From a virus, in IMG/VR virus record IMGVR_UViG_3300027861_000040, positions 1 to 52,899 of that record: a stretch of 52,899 nucleotides of DNA, one strand, 5' to 3'. The position numbers and the translations under genes were made by a program. The number at the start of each line of letters is the position of its first letter. Position 1 is the stretch's first letter. Positions 1 to 52,361 of this stretch are shown here, piece by piece. The notes beneath the pieces were generated by a model, which was not told where the DNA came from, did no database searches, and saw only the letters and a program-made list of their open reading frames with translations.

Positions 1-115
1 TCTTATCCAATGGCAGGTAAATGTGGTCGCCAACTGAGATTTTATAATCTATCACTATTGACAACGTGTTAACAGTAGAAATTAGCTCACATAAGTGGCG
101 GTGAGTATCAAGGGT

Positions 116-141
116 TGCAACCTTGTAAGAGAACCAAATTA
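116..141 (+). repeat. Internal repeat of the structured RNA, copy 1
   Basis: A 26-nt segment beginning TGCAACCTTGT and ending CAAATTA recurs at 696-721 with three mismatches. The copies are 580 nt apart, both inside the non-coding region. Confidence 0.75.
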
Positions 142-230
142 AGGCGTTGAAGAGCATAAGCCCAGACGTGGCAGAACCAACTTAATGGAGAGCAAAACAT
201 TTGCGTTGCTCACTCTCTCCCTTAGATATA

Positions 231-307
231 GATTAGTTAGAGGGTCAGTTAGATGTACATCAACTTAAATCAACTCCGTAAGAGAGCCCTCTTACTAATC
301 TTTTTAT
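231..307 (+). terminator. Terminator-like long stem inside the RNA region
   Basis: The arms 231-244 and 287-300 pair at 13 of 14 positions and are followed at once by TTTTTATTT. The 42-nt interior holds a smaller GTTAGATGT/ACATCAAC element. It could end a separate RNA lying left of base 307, or simply be a closing stem of the larger fold. Confidence 0.4.
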
Positions 308-695
308 TTCCTCCTGTGGGTAATTCCAGCGCAGGCATCTTGGAGGTGTAAATCCTACCATTAGCTAAAGAAGATGAAGGAATACTGGATAAGAATTAGA
401 AAGGCTGTAAGTCTACCACGCAATAGGAGTCGTGATTAGGACATAGTAGTATTTATACTGCAACAGCGTATACCAAGCAAGTAGATAAACTGCTTATTTA
501 ATTTGATACAGGGCTCTGAGAGTTACCCTCTTTACTATTTGTGGGACCACTGCGAGCTAGTGGGAAGTCTAGTAGTATTAATATTTAGGGGATATGGCAA
601 ATAGTTTTGCAGAAACGGCTTAGTATGATATCCTAGCAACAGAATAGACCGTCAGAAGGGTGCAAAGCCCTTCATTTATACCCAATCATACAAAG

Positions 696-721
696 TGCAA
701 CCTTGTGAGAGTAACAAATTA
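696..721 (+). repeat. Internal repeat of the structured RNA, copy 2
   Basis: Second copy of the 26-nt segment at 116-141, with three substitutions. It could be a loop or strand conserved between two related RNA units, or a remnant of tandem duplication. Confidence 0.75.
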
Positions 722-1465
722 CAATGTAGGTAGCGTGGACAGGAACAGAGCTTGCAGATTACTGTCACCTTATAGTAGAAATACTGTAATGGTTGGAGGG
801 CAAGTACATTGTAATCATATTAATCAAGTTGGTGGTACGCACCATTAAATGCTGCTCAAAAGATTTTAATAGAATCTTTCATGTAAGAGCTTGATTAAAA
901 TATTTCTCTTGTGTAGAGGAAGTCCTATGTTGTCAGGACTTTAAACTATAGATGTTAAACTATAGTGTAAAATAGACAAAACACATTGTAAACAGTACCT
1001 TTCTTGTAAGGGGAGCAGTTACAAACAAGTGTGGATAGCACAAAGACCTTACAGGGTTCTAAAACTATCAGTATTATAAGCAAAGAGTATAGCCTGTAAG
1101 CTATATGTGGTTACTTATAAATTTAGGGATTTGAGCTACTATCCTAGAAAAACGTAAAATGCTATGTTCAAACTAAAAAAAGAACTGGACAATGGTGTGA
1201 TGCCTAAAGCTAATTATATAATCAGAAGTGCCTAATCTTAAGATAGAAATGTCTTAAGTATCCCGCAAGGGCTTATGGATTTTATGTGCCAGCATAATTG
1301 AAATAAGACTTAAGCAAAGTGTCATTGGGCCAATGACATTGAGTGAGAGTAAAATGATTATATTCTAACCTGTTACTATGCAGTCAATCATAGTATGGCA
1401 AAGTTAATGAAGGTGTATTTCACATCGTGTGCTTACTACAGAAAGTCTGTAGGTCATTAACACTT

Positions 1466-1493
1466 CAACCGAGTAGTGCTAGGTTGTTTTTTT
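1466..1493 (+). terminator. Weak intrinsic terminator at the end of the RNA region
   Basis: CAACC (1466-1470) pairs with GGTTG (1482-1486), followed by seven T residues. The stem is only five base pairs, so this is tentative, but it sits where the dense folding stops. Confidence 0.4.
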
Positions 1494-1672
1494 ATAAGTT
1501 ATCCCATCTTGAAAAAATAGAGGGTGACTTGAAGTATAATAAGAATCACCTAAACCTTCATGTGCTGAAGGGTAGTAAGGACAGGCTCACTTACAAATAA
1601 GGATATATAATCCTGTCATTATTGACAGGATATCCTTAAAATAAATTTATTCCCAACTTAAAACTTAAAATT
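1494..1672 (+). promoter_or_regulatory. Leader with three hairpins before the first gene
   Basis: Between the putative terminator and the first start codon there are hairpins at 1523-1527/1546-1550 (GGTGA/TCACC), 1555-1560/1566-1571 (CCTTCA/TGAAGG) and a strong 16-bp hairpin at 1598-1638: inner arms 1610-1618/1623-1631 with a TTAT loop, outer arms 1598-1604/1632-1638. No T-run follows the last one, so it looks more like an mRNA leader or processing structure than a terminator. Confidence 0.5.
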
Positions 1673-3119: not shown

Positions 3120-3120
3120 A

Positions 3121-3530
3121 AAATTTTGAAATAAAAGAGAACAACTGATATAAAAAGAGCGTCAGGGTTTTCCTCTTTTGGCTTGATTATGTCATCTGGT
3201 TACATTATTTCAAAATTTGGTGGACAGTGGCCTATATTGTCCTTAATTGAGTGCAGAATGAAATGTCAGCCATGCACTCAGCCAATACTTTTTTGTGTGC
3301 CTAAATGTGAAACTCATAGCAAGGTCGTAAGTACCTCGAGAAGACTTATATGGATAGAGTTATAGCCTCTATACACAAAACTAACTAGTCCCACAATGAG
3401 TTGAAGAAGTTCAACTTTGGGCAGAAATAAGAGTTTAAAAACTAACCTAAAATAACAAACAAATGGCAGAATCAATAGCTTAAGATATTGATTGGGATAT
3501 TATCCTTAGTCTGCTCTCTTATTTTCTTAA
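3121..3530 (+). ncRNA. Second structured RNA, about 400 nt
   Basis: The 429-nt gap between genes is filled by nested inverted repeats. A perfect 14-bp stem joins 3121-3134 to 3205-3218 and encloses AAAAGAG/CTCTTTT (3153-3159/3173-3179). Then come GAGTGCA/TGCACTC (3249-3255/3273-3279), ATAGAG/CTCTAT (3354-3359/3367-3372) and CCCA/TGGG (3390-3393/3418-3421) enclosing GTTGAA/TTCAAC with a GAAG loop (3400-3415). A 3' domain closed by AAATAAGAG/CTCTTATTT (3425-3433/3516-3524) encloses GCAGA/TCTGC (3466-3470/3510-3514), AATCAATA/TATTGATT (3470-3477/3486-3493) and GGATA/TATCC. This is far more pairing than other gaps in the window show. No known RNA family is recognised. The strand is inferred from the neighbouring genes. 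Confidence 0.7.
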
Positions 3531-3548
3531 CTTATTAAAATATTAATT

Positions 3549-30838: not shown

Positions 30839-31315
30839 ATGGCATCAACAAAAACATATCTTAGAGATGGTAAAAATTGGACAAAAGAAGAATTAAATAC
30901 TTTATTGGACCAACATATAGAAGGTGAAACTGATAAAACTATTGCATATGTACTAGATAGAAGAATCAAAGGAGTACGTAATAAAAGAACTGAACTTATG
31001 AGAGAATTAGTAAATGACTTTACTAAACTAGATACTAATGGTTTAGATGAAAAAGGAATAGAACCTGGAGAAGGTTACTATATAACTAAAGAAAATTATG
31101 AGAAAATATTAAAGCTTATTAATAGTGATTTAGATTCTAATTTATTTAATTTATTAATTAAAGAAAATTTAGAAAAAAATGCTATAATGAATGTATTATT
31201 CAATGATGGTGTAGCAGGAATTGTAATACAAAATGCAATTGATGCTGCAAAAGCAATTACAAATGATGACATTGAAAAAAGAAAAATAGAACTTAATGAT
31301 TCAAAAAGTAACTAG
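30839..31315 (+). CDS. Myb/SANT-like DNA-binding protein
   Basis: A 158-residue protein whose N-terminus (residues about 12-50) reads WTKEELNTLLDQHIEGETDK and then IAYVLDRRIKGVRNKR. Such a W-led helix, followed by a basic recognition helix, is like SANT/Myb or small HTH folds used by phage regulators. The rest is helical. It has its own leader after the terminator at 30720-30745 and overlaps the radical SAM gene by 20 nt. It may regulate this transcript. Confidence 0.8.
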   Translation: MASTKTYLRDGKNWTKEELNTLLDQHIEGETDKTIAYVLDRRIKGVRNKRTELMRELVNDFTKLDTNGLDEKGIEPGEGYYITKENYEKILKLINSDLDSNLFNLLIKENLEKNAIMNVLFNDGVAGIVIQNAIDAAKAITNDDIEKRKIELNDSKSN

Positions 31316-32150
31316 AAAATCTATGATAATAAGGACATCAGGAAGGAGTAGTGATTATATTGCTCCTTCTTTTGGTTATGGTTGTTTATTAAACTGTTCT
31401 TATTGTTATATGAAACGTAATGTTCCAGAAGGATTAAGTGTTGCAAAAAATATAGAAGATATATTAACTGCAATAAACAATCATTCATTATTTGATACAA
31501 TAGAAAAACCAAACCAAACTGATCCTAAGTATATAACATATGATATTGCATGTAATGAAGATTTTGCTCTTCATTCTAAATATTATAATTGGAAAAAGAT
31601 ATTTCAATTTTTCCTTGAACATCCTTATGCAAAAGCAACATTTGCTACTAAAATTATTCCTATTAAATTTTTAGAATACAATCCTTTAAAAAAAGTTAGA
31701 ATAAGATTTAGTTTAATGCCACAAAAAATATCTAGTATTGTAGAACCAAATACTCCTGATATTATAGACAGGATTAAAGCTGTTAATGCGTTTATTGAAG
31801 CAGGATACGAAGTTCATTTAAATTTTAGTCCTGTTATAATTAATGATAACTGGCTTAAAGATTATAGTTTATTATTTAATATGTGTAATGATTATATAGA
31901 TTACAAAGATGAAGTAAAATCAGAAGTTATATTTTTAACACATAATAAAAATAAACATCAATATAACATTGATAATAATATTCCAGGAGAAGATTTACTA
32001 TGGAATCCATCAACACAAGAAGAAAAGACTTCTAGTTATGGCGGAGTTAATGTAAGATATAAAAGATCATTAAAACAAGAATCTATAAACTTGTTTAAAG
32101 AATTGCATGATAGTATTATTCCATGGAATACAATAAGATATATTTTTTAA
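31296..32150 (+). CDS. Spore photoproduct lyase-like radical SAM protein
   Basis: A 284-residue radical SAM protein with the cluster-binding motif CLLNCSYC (Cys30, Cys34, Cys37) in the context APSFGYG...YMKRNVPEG, as in spore photoproduct lyase and its relatives. Those enzymes reverse UV damage in DNA with an iron-sulfur cluster and S-adenosylmethionine. Family members outside Firmicutes may do other DNA-linked chemistry, so repair here is inferred. A second in-frame ATG at 31323 is an equally good start. A bidirectional terminator follows. Confidence 0.88.
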   Translation: MIQKVTRKSMIIRTSGRSSDYIAPSFGYGCLLNCSYCYMKRNVPEGLSVAKNIEDILTAINNHSLFDTIEKPNQTDPKYITYDIACNEDFALHSKYYNWKKIFQFFLEHPYAKATFATKIIPIKFLEYNPLKKVRIRFSLMPQKISSIVEPNTPDIIDRIKAVNAFIEAGYEVHLNFSPVIINDNWLKDYSLLFNMCNDYIDYKDEVKSEVIFLTHNKNKHQYNIDNNIPGEDLLWNPSTQEEKTSSYGGVNVRYKRSLKQESINLFKELHDSIIPWNTIRYIF

Positions 32151-40076: not shown

Positions 40077-43000
40077 TTAACAATTTTGATCAAATATTTC
40101 TAATATTTGGTTTATACTATTCTCTATATTATCTTCTAACATCTTATTAGTTATATTCTGACTATTATTTATATTATCAGTTATAACACTATTTTCTATA
40201 GATTTTGGATTTATGTATCCAAAGTTTTCATAAAGCTTTTTACTAAGATATTGATAAGTTTTAGGTGCTTTTTTATATAAATTTTCTCCATAACCACTGC
40301 TTAAAAATAATAATTTATTTCCATTATTCATTTCTGTAACATAATAATCTATATCAGTATCAATATTTTCTTTATTAAATTCAAAATTTTCATCATTTTG
40401 AATATCATTTAAAATAATTCCCAAATTTCCATCTACATAATTTTTAGACTTAATTTTATATGCTTTGTTATTTAGATAAAAGTTTTCATTTTGTATTGGT
40501 AAAACAATTAACTCATTAGTGTTTTCAGTTTTTTCAATTAAACTGTTTATATAAGCACCATTTTTTCTAGAAGTATTAATAAGTTGTATAGATGGATTAT
40601 TTACATAAATATTATTTATATCAGTAAGTGTTTCTTTTAAGTTACTTGTTTTTTCTGTCCAATTTTTAAATCTCCAAGCTTTTTGATTTTGATCTTCATA
40701 TTTATTAATAAGACTTTTAGTAAATGAATCTAAATATTCTGCACTTTTCATTCTTCCATCATAAGTTTTATCATTAAACATATCAATGACATCCTTATGA
40801 GCAGACTTTAATACTTCTAATATTTTTTCATTAGGTACACCTCTTACTAAAGATAGCGGACTATTTATATCTTGTCCTGTTTGAAAAAACGCAAAAAATG
40901 GAAAATCTTTAAAAAACTCTGTTATCATTTTATTATCTTCTTCATTTTCTACCTTTTTTATATTTGGATCCATTAATTCTGAAACATTTAAATAATAATT
41001 TTCAAAAGTTTCACCGTCATCTATTTTTTCGTTATACTTTAAATTAGTCACATAATTTCCTTTATCAATTACTAAATTGCTTAATATTTCGTATTGATTA
41101 ATTAAATCTGGATGTTTATCTAAAATTTCTGATAACCTAACCGCATAAGTATTAGTTGATTTAAATAGTTTTTGTTTATTATATATGTTATCTAATGTTT
41201 TTTGATTTAAATAAAAATCATAAACTTTTTTTAGACTTTCTTTTTTCTTTTCTGTTTCTTCTTCAGCAACATATTCATCATATAAATCAGTAAAATATTT
41301 ATCATCATATAAATCTTCTGCTGTTGTTGAAGATTTTAATAATTCTTTTTGTAAAGCAAATTCAAAATAATCATCAAAAGAAGTTATATATCTACCAATT
41401 TTAGGATCTTTTTTAGCATCTAAAAAATCGCTATTAAGTTTATTTGAATTTACATATATAACATCATCTTTAATTGCTACACCTTGTTTTAGATTTTGTA
41501 CATATTCAATTTTTAAATCTTTTTCAACTTTAAGGCCGCTTAATACTAATTTTCCATCAACAATTTTAGGTAAAAAAGATTCTCTTATTTTATTTTGAAA
41601 CATAAATGATACAAGATCATTTTTAAAAATATTAACAAATCTTTCTTTACCATCTACATCATTAGTCATTCCCATCTTTTTCAATGGAACGCTTCCTGAA
41701 GCTATTTCATTAGATAAATGATTATTTATATCTGGATGATTTCTTAATTCAAATAAATTAGATAAATACTTTAATGAAAATTCTGATATATCATATAATC
41801 CTATTATAGATGTATCAATTATTTTACTAATTAAATTTGAATCAAAATATTTTAAATTTAATAATCCTAATTTTGCTTTTTCTCTTTCAAATGCCGCATA
41901 TAATGAAATTGATTTTTTAGTATCATATGTTAAATTAGTTTTAATCTGAGTCATTTCATTAGATGGAGCTCTAAGTTTTAAATAATGATAAAATGCTGCT
42001 TGCGCAACTTCTCTATTATTATCATCAATACCATTCATTGCAATATCTTTTAAAATTTCAATATTATCTATTTCTTTTTCATACTTTTCAATTTCTGTAT
42101 TTGCAATCTTAAAAGAATTAAAATTAAAATTTTTCTTAGATGTATTAAATCCTTTAGGAAATTTATTTAAAGGATTTAATATAACAGCTTCTTCAGCTTT
42201 TATATTTATTAACCTAAGACCAAATGGAGATTTACTCGCCTCTTCAGATTGCTTTGTCAAGTATGCTTGTGATAATTCATAAAATACAGATTTTTTTATT
42301 CTAACTTGTTTTATATAATCTACTACATAAGGATTAGAAATAAAATAAACTGCTTTTTCTTCTGGAACACCGCTTTCAGTTAATAAAGTAAGTAAAGGAG
42401 CATTTTCAATTCCTGCATTAATATCAAATAGCCAAGCTTTCTTTTCAACATCTACTGCACCATTTATTAATTGAGAATTTGTATCAGAGATTTTAGTTGT
42501 ACCATTAACATCATAAACATTAGAAAGAGAAATATACTCTTTTTTATTTTTTAAAAATTTATTATGTGACAGCTTTAATTTAACTTTTTGTCTAATTCTT
42601 GGTTTATCCCCTGTATGATAAACAGTAAATTTTGCATCTATAAGTTGTAAATATTCAATAAATCTTTCATCAACACCAGGCATATCACCTACAATAAAAG
42701 TTACCCCTCTTTTGTGTTGTTCATCAATTTTTTCTTTTGTATACTCACTTAAATCAACATTTTTAAATGAAGCATTACGTGCTAACATAACAACTGAAGT
42801 TTCATCATTTAAAATATTTTTTGAATCTTCATTTTCATCAACTTCTTCTAAATTTATTTTTTCTTTTATTTTATTTAAAGATGTATTACTACTACTATCT
42901 TCTTTTCTTATTTCACCAATAAAACCATTAGCATCTTTACGCATTGCAGCATCTTTAGCATCTCCTTCAGCTGTACCTTTTCCTTTAGTACTAGATCCAG

Positions 43001-46000
43001 GAATCACTTTTGTATTAAAGTCAATATCATTTATATATGCTCCCATTCTATTATATACAGAATTAAATGTATTATTTACAGCATATAAACCTAATACAGC
43101 TTTTCCAATTGCATTAGATGAATGTTTATATAAATTATAAATTGGTTCAAATATTCTTGCAACTTCTAATACATCACTTTCACCTTCATCAGTATTTAAT
43201 TGCTGATATTGAGAATATTTCTTTTTACCAGCAGGACTTTGAGCCATTTTATCAGCTAATGCTTCTAATGATGCATTACCTAATGGTAAAACTAAATCAA
43301 TAAAATTTTCTGGTTGCTCAAGTATTTCTCTTATAACTTTAATAGTGTCATTATCTATACCTTTTGAACCAACAGAATTTAACTTTCTTTTATTTTCAGC
43401 TAATTTTTCATATAAAGGTTTTAGAATATTTTTTTCTTCTTTATTAAAAATTTCATATTCTTCTGTTAAATAAAATTGTTCTAATGCTTCTAATCTATTT
43501 TCTACCTCATTAATAGCATTTCTAGTTTCATCTAGCTTATTAGTAACATATGTTCCTTTTACTTTTAATGATTGAGTATATAATTCATTCCAGGTAGTAA
43601 GTAATTGTTTTTTAAGTTTTCTATCAACTTTTGATTCTTGTCTAAAAGTTTCTTCTTTTTCTTGAAACTCAATTTGAAGCTCAGGACTTAATTTTTTCTT
43701 TCTTTCTTTCCACTTACTTTTTCTCCAATTATTTCTTTTTTCTTTTATTTGATCTTTTATAAAATCTATTTTATTTTCTAAGTCTTCTTTATTTTCAGTT
43801 ACATCTAAATTTTTAATTAATTCTGTTTTACCATTAATAACTGTTAAGTTAGGCATATATATAGAAAGCTTATCAACATCAAAATCTGAACCTGATTTAG
43901 CAACCATTTCAGAAGGAGGTATAATTATATTACCAGCTGATTCAGGCAAAAATTCTCCAACTTCCATAAATTCCATAGAGTTAAGACCTTGAACTGGTAT
44001 ACGTACACCAACCATAGTAATCATTCTTCTATTGTCATCTTTATTTAACCAATCTTCATTTTTTATTACCTTATTCAATCTTTCTCTAGTACGAATTTTA
44101 TCACCTTTTAAATCTGTTAAATTAAGTAATTTTGTAAAATCACCTTGTAATGCAATTTTAATTTTCATTGCAGAGGTCATTCCATTATTAGCATTTTCTT
44201 GATATGAAGCTAAACCATCAGTACCATATGTTTCTTTATCTAATTCTGTTGCGTTTGTAAACTGTGAACTTTCAAAACCAGAATTAGAAACTAATACAAG
44301 CATTTCTCCATTTAGTTTTGACTTAATTAATTTATTATTAACTAATGCCATTAACATTTTTTCTATTTGTGGAGCATTTAGAGATAAAGATAAATCAGTA
44401 ACTATTTCACCATTATAATCAACATTAATAAAATCAAGCTCATGTGCAGCAAGATCTCTAGCTTTTAATTGCCTAGCTACCATTTCAACTAAACCTGAAA
44501 CATCTTCAGATCCTAAAGTATATCCTGATTCTCTTAATATTTCTTTTTTAGTACTTTCAATTTTTTGTTCTAATAAATTTTCATATGTAGTAGCAAAAGC
44601 TTTCATTTTTTTAGAAATAGCTCTTCCTTTTTCAAATATATTTAACTCTACTAATTTTCTAAATTGAGTTGAAAATGTAGCCTTTCTTTTAAATTCTGGA
44701 TGAATATCAATTTGATCTTTTAAGTATTCTAAATAAATTGGATTAGAAATAAATTTACTTTCTTCATTAAATTCTCTACTTTCTGTAGGTTTTATATCTC
44801 CTTTATATAATAATGAATTTTCACCATTTTCAGTTATTGTAGAAATCTTACTTCCTGAACCATATGTAGCATAAGTAATATTTTCTCTTGTCATTTTATT
44901 ATGTAACTTTTCCAAGTTAGTTCCTTCAATTACATTTGGTATTAAAGGCATTAATGAATATTTATGAAAACCTGTTAAAGGTACACTATTAGTAGTAGCT
45001 AAAGGTCCAAAATATTGATATTTTCTAACTGGAAAAAATTCTGATAAATTGTATTTAGATACATCTTCTTTATTAATAATTTTTTGGAATAACTCTTCTT
45101 GTTTTTTTGACCATTTACCTTGTAATTTACCAAGTATTCTATAAGCATCAAATGTAAGATATCCTTGACCATCACCTTCTTCCATTTTTAGATATGGTTT
45201 TATTGCACTTTGAACTGCATTATTTATCATATCATCTTTTACAGTTTTAGATAATTTAAGATTTTTATATCTTTCTATATAATATTTTCTAAATGCTTTT
45301 TCATAATTTTCAGCATATGCAGATTCTATTTCATTTTCTTTTAAAACTATAGTATTAAGTTTACCATTAAAATATAAAAGAACATTAGACATTAAACCAA
45401 GTGATTGTGTGTATGTTGTATTACGTGTTGGATTTGAAGTATTAGGAGCAGTAAATACATTATTAATCCAATTATACATTGCTTGATCAGTTCTAAAGAT
45501 TTGACCTGCAGAAGCCATCGCTGCATTTCTTTTATGAAAATCTTCTTTTAGCATATTATATTGAGAAGGATCTCCATAAAATATTGTCATTAAATCAAAT
45601 TTATTTAACATTTGATTTGCAACATATGAGCTTACTATTATTTCTGCCATTTGTTCTTTTGAAAGCTCTTCATCAGTATATTGTCCTAATTCTTTAGATA
45701 TTTTATCTTCTAAAGACTTTGATATAAAAGGCATTTCATTAAATTTCTCATATGTTTGTTCATAAACATTATTTAAATAATCATTTAAATCCATAGTTAA
45801 CCAATCTCTTAATGACCAATTTTCATCATAGTCAGCATCAAGAAATTCTTCAACTGTATCATATTCATCTAATACATCATATTCTCCTATTATGTCATGT
45901 TGAATTGCATCATAAAGTTCATCACTTATCATTCCTTTAAAAGTATACAACTCTGTACCTTTAGCTTTTATTTTATTTGTACCAACTGTATATCCTAAAA

Positions 46001-49000
46001 CTTCAGGTTGACCACCTTTTTTTATTATTTCTATTTTTTTAATATCAGCTATTATATGATCTATAATTTTGTTAATAGTTTTTACTGTTCCATCAGTTGT
46101 AACAACTTCACTAAAATTCTTACCATCATAGAACTTTATTGTTTTCTCATAATCTTCAGAAAACTCTACACTGTCAACATATACATGTTTATTTTGTCCA
46201 GAATTTTTAACTCTAGATGGCGAAGCAGCCAGTGCTGTAGATTTTGAAGCGTGTCTTGGAAATTCAGGATTACCTCTTATTAGAGTGTCATGTATATCTT
46301 GAATTAATTTATCATTATCTGTTAAATCAGCTGTTACATTTGACTTATCTAAAATTTCATCTTTTACTTTAGCAACTCCAGATAAATTTGTTAATTTAAG
46401 TACTATTTCTTTTTTAGTTGTTTTATCAATCAGTTTTGGACCTTCTCCATTTCCAATATCAAATATTGAATTTAATATACCATTTGATAATACAGAAGGA
46501 TTATTTCTAAAATCTAAGAAAGACATATAAGGTCTAGAAACTAATTCAGAATAAGTTTTAGATTTATTAATCGCATTTACAATTCTATTTACAGTTCCAT
46601 TATAAGTATGTTCATTCTGTAAATCATTGTTTGCATTATTTACGGAAAAATTAGAATACTTATCAGAAAATTTAGATTCAGCATTTAATATTTCAGTTAC
46701 TCTAGCAGTTTCACTTGATAAGTCTTTAATTATATCAAATATTAAACCTTTTCTTTTTTTATCTATTAATGCAGTGTATATATATTTTATTGATTCTTTA
46801 TATTTTTCTTTATTATTAATCTCATTAATTAATAAGTTATTATTATCTAAATTAAAACCAATATTTTTTAAAAATGTAAAAGGATTTTTTTGAGCAGCAT
46901 AATAATCAGGATAAGTTCTTCTAAACTTAGTATTTTCTCCAGTTTTTAAAACAGGTACTTTTCCTCTTCCTTTTATTTTTATTTCTGTTATATACTTATT
47001 TGGATCTCTTTTTATTGATTTAAAAAATGAAGAAAAATTAGCTCTTATTTTTTGTAAATTACCATGTGCAGCACCAGAAGTTAATTCATATTCAAGAATA
47101 GATTCATAATCTTTCTTCCCAGATTCACTTTTTATTTCTTTTTTAGTATTTAATTTAACAGTTATCTGCTCTAATGGTACTCTTGATTTATTAAATACTT
47201 GCCAAAAATCTGTCCATATGTCTACTTCAGAATCTGCTTTAGCTAAATTAGGATCACCTAATTTTTTTAATAATTCATTTATTGTACCTGCTACATTTGC
47301 ATCTGCTTTAGAAGCTTTTTTAAGAGCATCATACATTTCTTCTGGATGTTCTATTGACTCTAAAGTTTTTAATAATCTGCTCCAAGTTCTATTAAATTCA
47401 GAAAGTTCATGAACATCAATTTGATTAAGTTTTGGAGAACCATCTTCATTATATTTATGTAAACTTTTTATTAAAAATAAAATTTGTTTTGACGCACTTT
47501 GAATTGTTGAAAGCTTATTACTTGACCCTTCAATTACTTGTTGCCATTGTTGATTTTCTGTGTTAACACTTATTAAGTCTTTTACTGCTTCTGCATCTAA
47601 AGAATCAGTTAAACTTCCTGTATATTTAGAGTTATTTCTATGATATGCTGCTACACCTTTTGTAGATCCTAAATCACTTATATCACCCCATTGAGATATT
47701 GCATAATCTAATAATTCTTTTTTATATTCTGTATCTGCAGTTTCTCTAAGTTCTGTAAACTTATATAAAGCAAATTGATATGCATGTTTATAGAAAAATT
47801 CAGGAGCGGTATGCCATGCAGATGACCATTTAGTATTTTTATCTTGATCAATCCTCATATTAATAAATGTAGAAATAAATGAATCTATAGATTTCATTAA
47901 TACTCTTGACTTTTGAATGTCTAAATTTTCTACATTTTCATTTAAAGACTCTATTCCGTAATTTAGTTTTCCCCATTTAACATTGTTAATAGAATAATTT
48001 CTCTGTTCAAAATCCCCATTATAAAGCTCTTTTTGTAATTTTCTTACTGAATTTAATATTTCTGGCCTTACAATTGCACTTTCATAAGAAGTATTAGTAA
48101 ATAAAGATTTTAGAAAGTTAAATATTCTACTAAATATATTATTTCTTTTAGGAGAATCTTTCTTAGTAATTTTTCCTCCTGAAAGGCCGTACGCTCTATA
48201 ATCTTCTGCTAAATACTCTTCTATTTCTTTATCATTAGCTTCAGAAAACTTTTTAGTTACTCCTTTATATGTTACAAAAGTCCCAGTATCTTTTTTTACT
48301 TCATTATATAATTCAGATTTTTCTTCTGGAGTTAAAAATAATTGGGTGAAACCATGCCATGATTCATGGTAAAGATCTGTGTAATTAAAACCATCATGTA
48401 ATGTTATACCATCTACTGTAAACTGTGCATATATATTAGAGTTTACAATATTAGATATTATTTCATATGGTAAATACTTAGACATAGGATTTGAATCATA
48501 CCATTGTTTAGCTCTTTTTTGTTGTCTTTTTGTTTCAGCTCTTTGAGTTTCTCCTGCAGGTTTTGTTCTATATAATTCTTCAGAAAGATCATCAGTAGAA
48601 TTAAATCCTGTATTATTCTTTTCAGGTTCTTTTTTTAATTCAACCTCATTACTTTGAGCTGGTAATTGAGATGAAGGTATATGTCTAAAATTAATACTAT
48701 ATCGTGTACCCTTAGCTTTACCTACAGAATGACTTAACTTTCCAGTACTCATTTCAGCTAATGAATTATGTGTAGCTTGAAAATCAACACCACCAATCTT
48801 ATGTTTATTTTTAGTATGTCCTATAGAATAAATAGCAACACTACCTACTTCTCCTTTTTCATTATCGTAAATACTTTCAGCATCAGTATGAGTTCCTATA
48901 CCTACATTATCTCCGTATCTATTTATAAGAACATGGTTGTAGTATCCTGCAGGCTTACCTAAATCTTTTTCTACCTTTCTTGAAAGCTCTTGCATCCATT

Positions 49001-52000
49001 TTGGAATAGCTTTTATATTATGTATAGCCATTCTCTTATTACCTTGGCTATCTTTACCACCTTTAGCATAAGAATATTCTTTAGGGCCATATACAACAGC
49101 TACTTGCTTAACTTCATTATCAAAATTACTTTCTTTGTTTTGTTCAGTAGCTAAAAGATTTTCTACTTTATTAATATAGTCTTCACTTTGCTTATCAGTA
49201 AAAGCATCTTCTAAAATAGTAACTGTACCACCTTTTACAGGAGTAACAATAGCATTACTGTTTAAAGTAGATCCATGAGTTTGTGTTGGTTTAACTTCTA
49301 AATTTTCAAAAGATACTATATACTGACTATCACTAAACATTGTAAAATCAATACCTTTATATCCTTTCTTATGTAAAAAATCAAAAAATTGGTTTTGTTT
49401 TTCTTTTCCTTTTTTACTATTATCTAATAAATCAAATATTTCTCCTGTATTTTTAGAATCTTCTTGTTTTAAATCCTTATATAACTTAGAGTTACCTTTT
49501 AATAAATCTTTTATATTTAATGTAACAGTTCTTACATTTTTACCATAATCTTTAGCTTCAGATTTATTAACAGTAAAATAATTAAATTTTCTATCAGTCA
49601 AAGTATCATATCCTTGATATACTTGTTTAACCTCACTAGTTGGTGTTACTTTTAAATTAGGTATTTTTTCTAATTTTTTTAACTTATATGGTTCTTCAAT
49701 TCCAGAAAATTCAGATGGATAAGTTGTATATTCACCTTTTTCAGATGCAGCTTTAATAGGGATTATTAATAATTCAGATGCACTAAGACCATCTGTGTTA
49801 TTTAAGAGAATATTATATGTTGATAATTGTTTTGAAAACTTAGAGGCATCACTTTCACCACCTTCAAAACCACTGTCAAAGAACCTACTACCAGCTCTTT
49901 TGGTTTTCATATCCCAAATCTTTATTTCTCCAGTCTTCTTATTTATAGTTAAAAGATCTAATGTTCCTGCTATACCTAACTCATCATTATAAACAAGCAT
50001 TCCTTCTGCATAAACTTTTTCATCTTTTGAAATATTTTCTTCAGCCCAGGTTTCTATTGCATCAATAGCATCGTAATACATTGATCTTTTAATTGCGTTC
50101 TTTTTAAACTCACTATTAGCAATAAAGTCTTTATATGATTTGGAGCCATCTTCAGAAAAATAATCTCTAAAAATTTCATCAAAAGTAATACCAATAACTG
50201 CTCCTGTTTTAATTCTTAATATTGCGTCTTCTTCAGTGTTATTATTTTTATCTATAGGATCATCTAATAGATTTAAAAGATAACTATTCTTTTCCTCCAA
50301 AATATCTCTATCAATACTTATAGTTCCATCATCATTAAACACAAATGCATCTTGTTTTTCTACTTCTCTTAAATTATCAAGAGTGTCAGATGATTCAGAT
50401 GTTACATCCGTTACTCTATTATAAGTACGTATTATATTTCTATTTTCATCAAGTTGAATATATTTTTTTTTATCAGGCGATATTATAAAATTTTTTGATC
50501 TAGCTACAATCTGATCTAATATAACTATACTATTAGCTGCAGAAGAATTTTTAAGACTTGTATTACCCTTTATTATTCTTTTATTTCTTTTAAGATTATT
50601 TAAATCAGATACAGAAAAAGTGTAATAACCTCCAAGTAATGGTACTTGACCTTCAGCATTAACTACAAAAGGAGATGAAAAGTTTTCTTTTACAAAATCA
50701 TTATAATCTTTTTCTTGTGTTTCAACTTTATTATTTTCTATAGAAATTATATCATTTATTTTAGTTCCTAATGATCGTGAATCAAGATTTAATTGTAAAA
50801 CAAAGCTTTTTTCTATTTTCTCTTTATTTTTATCTGTTATAGGATATTTATAACCTTCTATTTTTTTCTCTATATCTTTTTTTAATTGCTTCTTAGTATA
50901 TACATCCCCTTTTTTATTTTTTACAATTAATTCTTTTGGATTTTTTTTGTCATAACTATATTTATAATCACTTATATACGTATATTGTTTAATTAATTTA
51001 ATTCTTTCTAAAGCCTTTATATCCAAGTCATCATTTAAAAGAAGTTCTTTTATAAAATCTGCGTACTTAGTATCCTTTAGAAGTAAATAATCAATTGGTA
51101 TATTAGGTGTAAAAGGATCAGAAACTTTTATAACAGCCTTTCCTTTATTCTCTCCTACTTTTTCTATTTCAATATCAAAAGGTAAAGTTTCATTAAAATT
51201 TATTTCACTTAATGGAACCTTTTCTTCATAGTTAACAACTGCATGACCTGGATTTACAGTTGTAATTTCAGTAATAACTTTATTATTCTTTTTATCACTT
51301 TGAATATATTTTATTGCATCATCTACAGCTTTCCAATCTGCATCAAATCTTTTTTTAACTTCTTTAACTGATTCTCCAGTTTTTTTAGCTACATCTTGAA
51401 AAGATGCTAAACCTCTATAAAAATTTTCTTTATTTCCAAAAGTTCTTCTAACATTATCATATGAAGCAATTCCTTCTTCAGCAGATACCACATTATAATT
51501 ACCAGAGTCATCTTCCTTAAAATATAATATATTACCATTATTATCTGTAATAACAGCAGATATACCATTTTGATAATCTACTTTTCTCTGAGCTAATGTT
51601 TGTTTCTTTTGAACTACATCTTTTTTTAATTTTTCATCCCATCTATAATCAATATGTTCTTTATCAGTAATTCTTCTTAAATGCTCTGGTCTTAAATCTT
51701 CTTTTCTTAACATCGTTTGAGACATAAGAGTTATTTTAAAACCTGTATGTCCACCAAAGGTAAGATCAGACATTGATAAATTATCTGATTTATTTAGTGC
51801 TAATGCAAATGCTTTCTTTAAATTTTTATAAAATGTATTTTCTTTATCTAAGATTCCTTGTTGAGATGATAGTGCAGCAAACAAGTGAGGTCTAGTTATT
51901 GTTGACGCAACATCTTGTGGTTTAGCATCAAAAATAACATTTGTTACTCTACTTTTTTCATCTATTGAATTTCCTGCATTATTTCTTTTTAACTTCTTTT

Positions 52001-52361
52001 TTTGTTTACGAGATAATGTAGAAGGATCAATTTTAAAATATTCAACAACCTTGTTAAAATCACTAAATTCTTCTACTAATTTTCCTAAATTATCTAAACT
52101 AAAACCTTTACCTCTTTGTTGCAACAATAATTCTTGATTTCCCGATATAACTTGCAACATTATACTTGGTGTTAATTGCATAAAAGATAATGCTGTTAAA
52201 GGTGCTATACCACCTTCTATTGAAGCATTATAATAAGTATCAATAATATTTTCAAAATTAATTAACTCATCTTTTTGAAAAGATTGTTTAGCAAAAGATG
52301 AGAGAATTAATAAAATTCTATCTACATCGTTATCAAGTAATGTTACACATTTAATAGACAT
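40077..52361 (-). CDS. 4,094-residue giant protein with RNA polymerase and polyvalent domains
   Basis: Domains from the N-terminus: a PD-(D/E)XK nuclease region (about 730-870; GIAGTLDLLTI, IKIWDMKTK, QLSTYNILL); an ART-like region (about 910-1022; VYQGYDTL to GYKGIDFTMF); an AlkB-like dioxygenase (about 1080-1230; INRYGDNVGIGTHTDAE with His1158 and Asp1160, then LSHSVGKAKGTRYSINFR); a zincin with HESWH at 1332-1336 and an EEYLAEDYRAYG helix; and a long core with the metal-binding motif SGSDFDVDKLSIYMP (Asp residues 2826, 2828 and 2830), the signature of crAss-like virion RNA polymerase (phi14:2 gp66-like). A SLOG-like nucleotide-binding region follows (about 3184-3258; TFIVGDMPGVDERFIEYL). 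The polymerase should transcribe early genes after injection. It is much longer than the roughly 2,200 residues I recall for gp66. Confidence 0.92.
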   Translation of the reverse strand: MSIKCVTLLDNDVDRILLILSSFAKQSFQKDELINFENIIDTYYNASIEGGIAPLTALSFMQLTPSIMLQVISGNQELLLQQRGKGFSLDNLGKLVEEFSDFNKVVEYFKIDPSTLSRKQKKKLKRNNAGNSIDEKSRVTNVIFDAKPQDVASTITRPHLFAALSSQQGILDKENTFYKNLKKAFALALNKSDNLSMSDLTFGGHTGFKITLMSQTMLRKEDLRPEHLRRITDKEHIDYRWDEKLKKDVVQKKQTLAQRKVDYQNGISAVITDNNGNILYFKEDDSGNYNVVSAEEGIASYDNVRRTFGNKENFYRGLASFQDVAKKTGESVKEVKKRFDADWKAVDDAIKYIQSDKKNNKVITEITTVNPGHAVVNYEEKVPLSEINFNETLPFDIEIEKVGENKGKAVIKVSDPFTPNIPIDYLLLKDTKYADFIKELLLNDDLDIKALERIKLIKQYTYISDYKYSYDKKNPKELIVKNKKGDVYTKKQLKKDIEKKIEGYKYPITDKNKEKIEKSFVLQLNLDSRSLGTKINDIISIENNKVETQEKDYNDFVKENFSSPFVVNAEGQVPLLGGYYTFSVSDLNNLKRNKRIIKGNTSLKNSSAANSIVILDQIVARSKNFIISPDKKKYIQLDENRNIIRTYNRVTDVTSESSDTLDNLREVEKQDAFVFNDDGTISIDRDILEEKNSYLLNLLDDPIDKNNNTEEDAILRIKTGAVIGITFDEIFRDYFSEDGSKSYKDFIANSEFKKNAIKRSMYYDAIDAIETWAEENISKDEKVYAEGMLVYNDELGIAGTLDLLTINKKTGEIKIWDMKTKRAGSRFFDSGFEGGESDASKFSKQLSTYNILLNNTDGLSASELLIIPIKAASEKGEYTTYPSEFSGIEEPYKLKKLEKIPNLKVTPTSEVKQVYQGYDTLTDRKFNYFTVNKSEAKDYGKNVRTVTLNIKDLLKGNSKLYKDLKQEDSKNTGEIFDLLDNSKKGKEKQNQFFDFLHKKGYKGIDFTMFSDSQYIVSFENLEVKPTQTHGSTLNSNAIVTPVKGGTVTILEDAFTDKQSEDYINKVENLLATEQNKESNFDNEVKQVAVVYGPKEYSYAKGGKDSQGNKRMAIHNIKAIPKWMQELSRKVEKDLGKPAGYYNHVLINRYGDNVGIGTHTDAESIYDNEKGEVGSVAIYSIGHTKNKHKIGGVDFQATHNSLAEMSTGKLSHSVGKAKGTRYSINFRHIPSSQLPAQSNEVELKKEPEKNNTGFNSTDDLSEELYRTKPAGETQRAETKRQQKRAKQWYDSNPMSKYLPYEIISNIVNSNIYAQFTVDGITLHDGFNYTDLYHESWHGFTQLFLTPEEKSELYNEVKKDTGTFVTYKGVTKKFSEANDKEIEEYLAEDYRAYGLSGGKITKKDSPKRNNIFSRIFNFLKSLFTNTSYESAIVRPEILNSVRKLQKELYNGDFEQRNYSINNVKWGKLNYGIESLNENVENLDIQKSRVLMKSIDSFISTFINMRIDQDKNTKWSSAWHTAPEFFYKHAYQFALYKFTELRETADTEYKKELLDYAISQWGDISDLGSTKGVAAYHRNNSKYTGSLTDSLDAEAVKDLISVNTENQQWQQVIEGSSNKLSTIQSASKQILFLIKSLHKYNEDGSPKLNQIDVHELSEFNRTWSRLLKTLESIEHPEEMYDALKKASKADANVAGTINELLKKLGDPNLAKADSEVDIWTDFWQVFNKSRVPLEQITVKLNTKKEIKSESGKKDYESILEYELTSGAAHGNLQKIRANFSSFFKSIKRDPNKYITEIKIKGRGKVPVLKTGENTKFRRTYPDYYAAQKNPFTFLKNIGFNLDNNNLLINEINNKEKYKESIKYIYTALIDKKRKGLIFDIIKDLSSETARVTEILNAESKFSDKYSNFSVNNANNDLQNEHTYNGTVNRIVNAINKSKTYSELVSRPYMSFLDFRNNPSVLSNGILNSIFDIGNGEGPKLIDKTTKKEIVLKLTNLSGVAKVKDEILDKSNVTADLTDNDKLIQDIHDTLIRGNPEFPRHASKSTALAASPSRVKNSGQNKHVYVDSVEFSEDYEKTIKFYDGKNFSEVVTTDGTVKTINKIIDHIIADIKKIEIIKKGGQPEVLGYTVGTNKIKAKGTELYTFKGMISDELYDAIQHDIIGEYDVLDEYDTVEEFLDADYDENWSLRDWLTMDLNDYLNNVYEQTYEKFNEMPFISKSLEDKISKELGQYTDEELSKEQMAEIIVSSYVANQMLNKFDLMTIFYGDPSQYNMLKEDFHKRNAAMASAGQIFRTDQAMYNWINNVFTAPNTSNPTRNTTYTQSLGLMSNVLLYFNGKLNTIVLKENEIESAYAENYEKAFRKYYIERYKNLKLSKTVKDDMINNAVQSAIKPYLKMEEGDGQGYLTFDAYRILGKLQGKWSKKQEELFQKIINKEDVSKYNLSEFFPVRKYQYFGPLATTNSVPLTGFHKYSLMPLIPNVIEGTNLEKLHNKMTRENITYATYGSGSKISTITENGENSLLYKGDIKPTESREFNEESKFISNPIYLEYLKDQIDIHPEFKRKATFSTQFRKLVELNIFEKGRAISKKMKAFATTYENLLEQKIESTKKEILRESGYTLGSEDVSGLVEMVARQLKARDLAAHELDFINVDYNGEIVTDLSLSLNAPQIEKMLMALVNNKLIKSKLNGEMLVLVSNSGFESSQFTNATELDKETYGTDGLASYQENANNGMTSAMKIKIALQGDFTKLLNLTDLKGDKIRTRERLNKVIKNEDWLNKDDNRRMITMVGVRIPVQGLNSMEFMEVGEFLPESAGNIIIPPSEMVAKSGSDFDVDKLSIYMPNLTVINGKTELIKNLDVTENKEDLENKIDFIKDQIKEKRNNWRKSKWKERKKKLSPELQIEFQEKEETFRQESKVDRKLKKQLLTTWNELYTQSLKVKGTYVTNKLDETRNAINEVENRLEALEQFYLTEEYEIFNKEEKNILKPLYEKLAENKRKLNSVGSKGIDNDTIKVIREILEQPENFIDLVLPLGNASLEALADKMAQSPAGKKKYSQYQQLNTDEGESDVLEVARIFEPIYNLYKHSSNAIGKAVLGLYAVNNTFNSVYNRMGAYINDIDFNTKVIPGSSTKGKGTAEGDAKDAAMRKDANGFIGEIRKEDSSSNTSLNKIKEKINLEEVDENEDSKNILNDETSVVMLARNASFKNVDLSEYTKEKIDEQHKRGVTFIVGDMPGVDERFIEYLQLIDAKFTVYHTGDKPRIRQKVKLKLSHNKFLKNKKEYISLSNVYDVNGTTKISDTNSQLINGAVDVEKKAWLFDINAGIENAPLLTLLTESGVPEEKAVYFISNPYVVDYIKQVRIKKSVFYELSQAYLTKQSEEASKSPFGLRLINIKAEEAVILNPLNKFPKGFNTSKKNFNFNSFKIANTEIEKYEKEIDNIEILKDIAMNGIDDNNREVAQAAFYHYLKLRAPSNEMTQIKTNLTYDTKKSISLYAAFEREKAKLGLLNLKYFDSNLISKIIDTSIIGLYDISEFSLKYLSNLFELRNHPDINNHLSNEIASGSVPLKKMGMTNDVDGKERFVNIFKNDLVSFMFQNKIRESFLPKIVDGKLVLSGLKVEKDLKIEYVQNLKQGVAIKDDVIYVNSNKLNSDFLDAKKDPKIGRYITSFDDYFEFALQKELLKSSTTAEDLYDDKYFTDLYDEYVAEEETEKKKESLKKVYDFYLNQKTLDNIYNKQKLFKSTNTYAVRLSEILDKHPDLINQYEILSNLVIDKGNYVTNLKYNEKIDDGETFENYYLNVSELMDPNIKKVENEEDNKMITEFFKDFPFFAFFQTGQDINSPLSLVRGVPNEKILEVLKSAHKDVIDMFNDKTYDGRMKSAEYLDSFTKSLINKYEDQNQKAWRFKNWTEKTSNLKETLTDINNIYVNNPSIQLINTSRKNGAYINSLIEKTENTNELIVLPIQNENFYLNNKAYKIKSKNYVDGNLGIILNDIQNDENFEFNKENIDTDIDYYVTEMNNGNKLLFLSSGYGENLYKKAPKTYQYLSKKLYENFGYINPKSIENSVITDNINNSQNITNKMLEDNIENSINQILEIFDQNC
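43872..43886 (-). other. RNA polymerase catalytic DFDVD motif
   Basis: Codons 2826-2830 of the giant protein encode DFDVD within SGSDFDVDKLSIYMP. In multisubunit-type and crAss-like RNA polymerases the DxDxD carboxylates bind the catalytic magnesium ion in a double-psi beta barrel. Confidence 0.8.

Follow-up and report, generated by a model that had tools for sequence, protein, structure and literature searches.

A new family of large structured RNAs within a probable row of exchangeable RNA cassettes in a crAss-like phage genome

Results

A gene-free stretch holding a new structured RNA

The contig IMGVR_UViG_3300027861_000040 (52.9 kb, linear, viral; its full 52,899 nt are called the window here) opens with a gene-free stretch that almost certainly contains a large structured RNA, R600, that is genuine and belongs to a new family. 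We consider it very probable that this stretch (1-1672) represents the right side of an 'RNA island' without coding sequence, that is, a row of exchangeable RNA cassettes. Sequence comparison shows the family itself with its base pairing and two long-range contacts, as well as the modular build of the island and a neighborhood in common with GOLLD, hatchet and tRNAs. The features are as follows (L numbers denote related loci).

1-134 (+): element A, a new RNA; 95% identity to L057 and L121 up to 134-137
138-224 (+): element C, a structured module of ~90 nt with a CCAGACGUGGCAG core; homologues in L092 and L190-L194
229-303 (+): long hairpin closing the C cassette, which spans 138-303; from the fold, the terminator scan and the border at 303 given by L190
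304-848 (+): middle segment, unclassified; 113 other bases stand in its place in L190
916-1496 (+): R600, almost certainly a new family of large structured RNA; alignment with 10 homologues, double changes at 69 of 158 pairs
930-934 with 975-979 (+): pseudoknot; three of five pairs double-changed, no mismatch, 10 sequences
1049-1054 with 1094-1099 (+): loop-loop pairing with a covarying pair
1186-1188 with 1289-1291 (+): third, weaker long-range pairing; one compensated change, in L092
1327-1331 (+): hairpin tip with a palindrome; GGCC in all but one of the 11 sequences, GCGC in L182
1466-1494 (+): 3' hairpin CAACCGAGUAGUGCUAGGUUG with a T-run behind it; shared by all 11 sequences, compensated in L189

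No ORF in window 1-1672 reaches 75 aa, and just one, with 62 aa at 660-848, reaches 60 aa. The initial annotation had described ~1.5 kb without coding sequence; the absence of genes stands, but the stretch reaches from 1 to 1672 rather than to 1493, and its left end is cut because the contig is linear. The base composition does differ from that of the genes, as had been claimed, with a GC content of 33-40% across 1-1500 versus mostly 15-27% in the genes downstream. The region also folds more strongly than dinucleotide shuffles, in keeping with the structured RNA that had been proposed (z = -2.7 for 1-990, -5.9 for 661-1640 and -3.4 for 880-1510; 20 shuffles each). The 4094-aa protein of the window matches the catalytic RNA polymerase subunit of phi14:2 (E 1e-17) and those of other crAss-like phages; a giant RNA polymerase of the crAss type marks the phage, on this protein match, as crAss-like, again as first annotated. 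Several records with similar islands encode a giant protein of the same kind. We found no real match to the region by blastn against cultured-phage records, and the flanking gene at 1673-2188, used as bait for related loci, brought up no relative.

R600 is supported by extensive covariation

Scanning IMG/VR with conserved words yielded 10 homologues of R600 that could be aligned, all in uncultivated viruses, together with a contig-end fragment, L190, which is 99% identical to window 849-1006 and stops inside R600. Identity to the window is 86% for L092, 83% for L177, 81% for L172 and L189, 79% for L184 and L181, 78% for L183 and L180, 73% for L182, and 79% for the partial L186. Conservation extends from ~921 through the 3' T-run, giving a length of ~580 nt.

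RNAalifold predicted 148 pairs from a 10-sequence alignment, 63 of them with a double change. In the 11-sequence alignment, with the long-range pairs included, 97.8% of 1640 pair cells are paired, and double changes occur at 69 of 158 pairs, compared with 31.5 ± 3.4 in shuffles and 6-10 in slid structures; the structure was derived from the same sequences, which favors the true version over slid ones, especially in the percentage paired. We judged the excess of double changes to be too large for this bias alone. Twenty-five helices were counted within 916-1496 alone, 23 of which contain at least one double-changed pair, so that the 'at least twelve' stems initially noted for the whole stretch proved too low a figure. 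Two GNRA tetraloops alternate between GAAA and GCAA, and conserved G-U pairs are present. With hundreds of nucleotides, many covarying helices and long-range contacts, R600 has the properties by which large ornate RNAs are recognized.

The initial annotation had looked to homologues for covarying pairs and for a conserved protein; the covariation is there, and no ORF of at least 75 aa lies inside R600 in the homologues, the exception being a 135-base overlap in L184. R600 loci have few neighboring proteins in common, and R600 is therefore not tied to one gene. The next gene starts 172-291 bases 3' of R600 in several loci, and between most loci these next genes are unlike one another.

Long-range contacts and the 3' end

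We scanned the unpaired columns of R600 blindly for helices of 5-6 pairs. Only two regions were hit, 930-934/975-979 and 1049-1054/1094-1099; in the controls, the mean was 0.03 hits for row shuffles, and a parallel-strand version had none. The first, a pseudoknot, occurs as UUGUC:GACAA, CUGUA:UACAG, UUGCA:UGCAA and UUGGC:GCCAA. The second, a loop-loop pairing, reads UUACAG:CUGUAA or UUGCAG:CUGCAA; one of its pairs is A-U in four sequences and G-C in six, with one mismatch, in L182.

The palindromic tip at 1327-1331 is a candidate contact between two R600 molecules, for which its single switch is only a hint. Comparable evidence has been used elsewhere: switching of a tip between palindromes supports contacts between OLE molecules, and an internal GC/CG switch supports intermolecular contacts in GOLLD (PMC12286853). 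We read the 3' hairpin and its T-run as the end of the predicted R600 transcript; a simple terminator scan of the window did not list this 3' end.

R600 has no match among known RNA families

A cmscan search of 1-1680 against the 4227 families of Rfam 15, with E up to 10, returned chance hits only (E at least 1.8), and cmscan of the window at gathering scores returned nothing real. The window is not a member of any of the Rfam families checked, OLE, HEARO, raiA, introns and ribozymes included. Moreover, the GOLLD model (RF02032) run directly on the window gave no match, while the same search recovered the GOLLD of L031; the ROOL model (RF03087) run directly with E up to 10 found nothing in the window and, in 10 records with R600 homologues, scored at best 7.2 bits (E 5), away from R600. 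The initial annotation, which could match the region to neither GOLLD nor ROOL, is thus borne out by the Rfam scan and by both models. It had also thought the RNA longer than either of them, which does not hold, since the largest module, at ~580 nt, is close in size to the ROOL model with its 574 positions. Lastly, it had offered a new class or a tandem of known units: R600 agrees with the former, and the stretch is not a tandem of known units.

R600 itself had no real match by blastn to cultured-phage records. A covariance model of its domain R1, searched against ~1.84 Mb of loci and 32 whole records, matched R600 loci only, and a model of domain R2 (0.2 Mb searched) matched R600 loci and, weakly and in part, the R600 fragment in L190. 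One hit for R600 from a pattern scan of GTDB was put down to chance, as the covariance model rejected it. We found no description of such an RNA in crAss-like phages in the literature covered, which took in only a minority of subscription journals.

Element A has a constant frame and free inserts

Element A, which has lost its first few bases at the contig start in the window, was found in 146 copies. It is built from a closing helix (UC)UCUUA/UAAGAGA, a linker UCCAAUGGCAGG, a variable arm and a 3' hairpin, the last being CAAGG-GUUGCAA-CCUUG at 109-125 of the window. Across A elements there is very little change in the closing helix, in the linker, UCCAA(UU)GCAGG, or in the hairpin, CAAGG-(G/A)UUGCAA-CCUUG; the inserts range from nothing to ~170 nt and fall into ~75 unrelated classes. 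The closing helix covaries (pair 1 is TA in 54, AT in 16 and GC in 2; pair 7 is CG in 66 and TA in 8) and is 99.2% paired, versus at most 93.3% over 1000 shuffles. Upon inspection of the 3' hairpin, we noted that its loop contains the palindrome UUGCAA, and that the loop UUGC could alternatively pair with GCAG of the linker.

A was present in 19 of the 27 records searched whole, most of which had been chosen as A carriers, once in 17 and twice in two. Islands containing A have a median length of 754 nt and reach 2.9 kb. The strand of A is that of the flanking genes (67 ++ versus 2 --). There are 80 pairs of A elements with an insert but neither flank in common, 83 that share the downstream flank only and 65 that share the upstream flank only; by this comparison, inserts and flanks are mixed freely. 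No hit to A was obtained in a scan of GTDB genomes and no real match in cultured phages, nor did Rfam intron and ribozyme models match the window or the tested A elements.

Two candidate identities for A were rejected. Its shortest form of ~70 nt, its acceptor-like helix and its 3' hairpin recall a tRNA, but it has no canonical T-loop and takes arbitrary inserts; its inverted-repeat-like ends recall a simple mobile element, but different inserts are also found between the same flanks. In many related loci (for example L024, L065 and L097), we also noted a hairpin that recurs just 5' of A, CCUGAGCAUG-AAUUAAAAC-UGCUC with T-rich sequence after it. A version of it forms the end of window segment 394-500, and it may be a shared terminator.

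Cassette borders between A and R600

Element C shows compensated changes, for example from GAGAGC/GCUC to GAGAGU/ACUC. The hairpin that closes its cassette is terminator-like at its tip (278-295) and comes with a T-run; the terminator scan found two such sites versus 1.1 expected. Within the middle segment, 394-500 has a relative just 3' of A in L057, and 690-717 is similar to the 3' end of an A element. L190 corresponds to window 132-303 joined to 849-1006 across 113 other bases; module borders therefore lie near 303 and 848, and the cassette common to the window and L190 begins at ~849. In L092 the order is A, R600, C.

The initial annotation treated the whole stretch as one very large structured RNA region. 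On a single-RNA reading, A, C, the middle segment and R600 would be domains of one molecule. All parts do lie on one strand with no gene between them. The modules are, however, found apart or reordered in L092, L190 and L057: each of R600, A and C is seen in places that lack the other two, 304-848 is exchanged in L190, and the order differs in L092. Terminator-like hairpins at 278-303 and 1466-1494 also speak against a single RNA, to which we give only a very small probability.

GOLLD, hatchet, element B and tRNAs in related islands

In L031 the order is A, a GOLLD match and two B elements; in L183 it is a hatchet ribozyme, R600 and B; in L126 it is hatchet, A and B. A is followed by R600 in the window and in L092. 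In the few informative loci, then, A or hatchet comes before R600 or GOLLD, and in two of them B comes after it. These orders place R600 and GOLLD in similar positions, a likeness drawn from a single GOLLD locus and a small number of R600 islands, neither RNA being present in most A islands. In L182, tRNA-Pro and tRNA-Ile stand immediately upstream of R600.

The GOLLD match at L031:4367-4761 (+) scores 100.8 bits (E 7e-27), under the cut-off of 150 bits; it is a diverged GOLLD hidden by the Rfam gathering score. The hatchet ribozymes at L126:2899-3036 (-) and L183:10438-10575 (-) score 82 and 87 bits, over the cut-off, and none was found in the window.

Element B is a further uncatalogued RNA, present at L031:4759-5105, at L183:9000-9170 (-) and in ~50 places in related loci. 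In order, it comprises UAAUGCACCA, a hairpin around UUCCCAAGG, CAGUUGUAAUA and UAUUACAACUG with an insert that varies, and AGUGCAGAGGGG. In the records checked, B lies a few hundred bases 3' of A, mostly once per genome; B in L031 had no Rfam match. Beside R600 we also noted tRNA-like sequences at L184 ~463-533 (-) and L177 ~1011-1091 (+). The acceptor and T-arm are present, the D and anticodon arms are replaced by ACAUARAGAUGAUAGCCUUUAUGAUGGA, and ARAGORN made no call.

Discussion

Taken together, we picture an RNA island of separate cassettes in which R600 would be a stand-alone ornate RNA resembling GOLLD and ROOL, an overall explanation that we consider about evenly balanced between right and wrong. 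The island would be transcribed on the gene strand during infection, with the hairpin and T-run setting the 3' end of R600. Structured elements upstream, A here and hatchet in one relative, might free R600 from the remaining transcript. R600 would then fold compactly through its pseudoknots, loop-loop contact and GNRA tetraloops, and might take on the role of GOLLD and ROOL, as an RNA particle present in abundance and possibly multimeric. Both of those RNAs assemble into multimers made of RNA alone (PMC12286853); that R600 likewise assembles into a multimer is a tentative suggestion, which by analogy we hold a little short of even. We infer the common role from size, complexity of fold and a handful of loci, because R600 has no detectable sequence relation to either RNA.

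GOLLD is a parallel in context: it too is a large ornate phage RNA, and the order A-GOLLD-B compares with A-R600 and R600-B. Its Rfam model, by contrast, has 416 positions and another set of helices, and matches R600 neither in sequence nor by covariance model. ROOL resembles R600 in length and differs in giving chance scores only in the direct search. GOLLD and ROOL are often found near phage tRNAs (PMC7567579), and the L182 copy of R600 has such a neighborhood as ROOL often does. OLE, which is encoded by the host and not by phages, differs from R600 in having no cmscan match in the window. Hatchet (RF02678) shares the islands, 5' of R600 in L183 and 5' of A in L126, and has no detectable match to A. 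In phage ICP1, an ORF-less region of ~1 kb yields the most abundant transcript, a large non-coding RNA of ~800 nt (PMC7567579), which is like R600 in its origin from an ORF-less phage region.

Could R600 nevertheless be a very diverged ROOL or GOLLD? Its ROOL-like size, GOLLD-like neighborhood and island context would fit, but with no cmscan match at E up to 10 and with both direct models blank in R600 we regard this as improbable. Slightly less probable still is a cis-acting, riboswitch-like leader of the next gene: the gene start 172-291 bases downstream in several loci would suit a leader, while the change of next gene between most loci, the closing hairpin with its T-run and a length of ~580 nt, very long for such an RNA, would not. 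The stems might also act in DNA, as a replication origin, packaging site or hairpin promoter. Covariation alone cannot separate RNA from single-stranded DNA, and the island is actively recombining; yet features of RNA are seen in the conserved G-U pairs, the pseudoknots, the swaps of GNRA loops and the 3' end resembling a terminator, and A follows the strand of its neighboring genes. A role in DNA is accordingly the alternative to which we give least weight.

More room is left for R600 or A being itself a self-splicing or self-cleaving RNA, an intron or a ribozyme, although we still think it unlikely. Hatchet ribozymes in the same islands are consistent with it, as is the build of A, a compact conserved core with arbitrary inserts such as ribozymes can have. 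Against it stand the lack of any Rfam intron or ribozyme match in the window or the tested A elements, and R600 has no intron-encoded protein. For A taken separately, position suggests a self-cleaving or processing element, a somewhat better prospect that we nonetheless doubt. Returning to the cassette reading, a wider extension of it would have crAss-like phages of open environments carry islands that slot GOLLD or R600 interchangeably beside self-cleaving elements, namely hatchet, A and B, with A and B as new ribozyme classes and R600 as one more phage RNA family that assembles into an RNA-only particle; as a whole, this is rather unlikely to be correct.

To our knowledge, only a few families of giant ornate RNAs are known. 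R600 and GOLLD in like places form a comparison set in which the activity of two unrelated RNAs at a shared location is likely to point to function. The islands also carry at least three more uncatalogued RNA elements of crAss-like phages (A, B and C), one of them in >100 copies.

Other observations in the window

A second G+C-richer gap lies at 3120-3548 (GC 0.33; fold z = -2.6) and includes the following feature.

3217-3285 (+): possible second RNA segment; 80% identity over 70 bases with a relative directly 3' of element A in L016

The giant RNA polymerase protein, encoded at 40077-52361 (-), also matches a 2OG-Fe(II) oxygenase domain. A radical SAM protein resembling spore photoproduct lyase is encoded at 31296-32150 (+) and is conserved at ~70% in 17 related loci.
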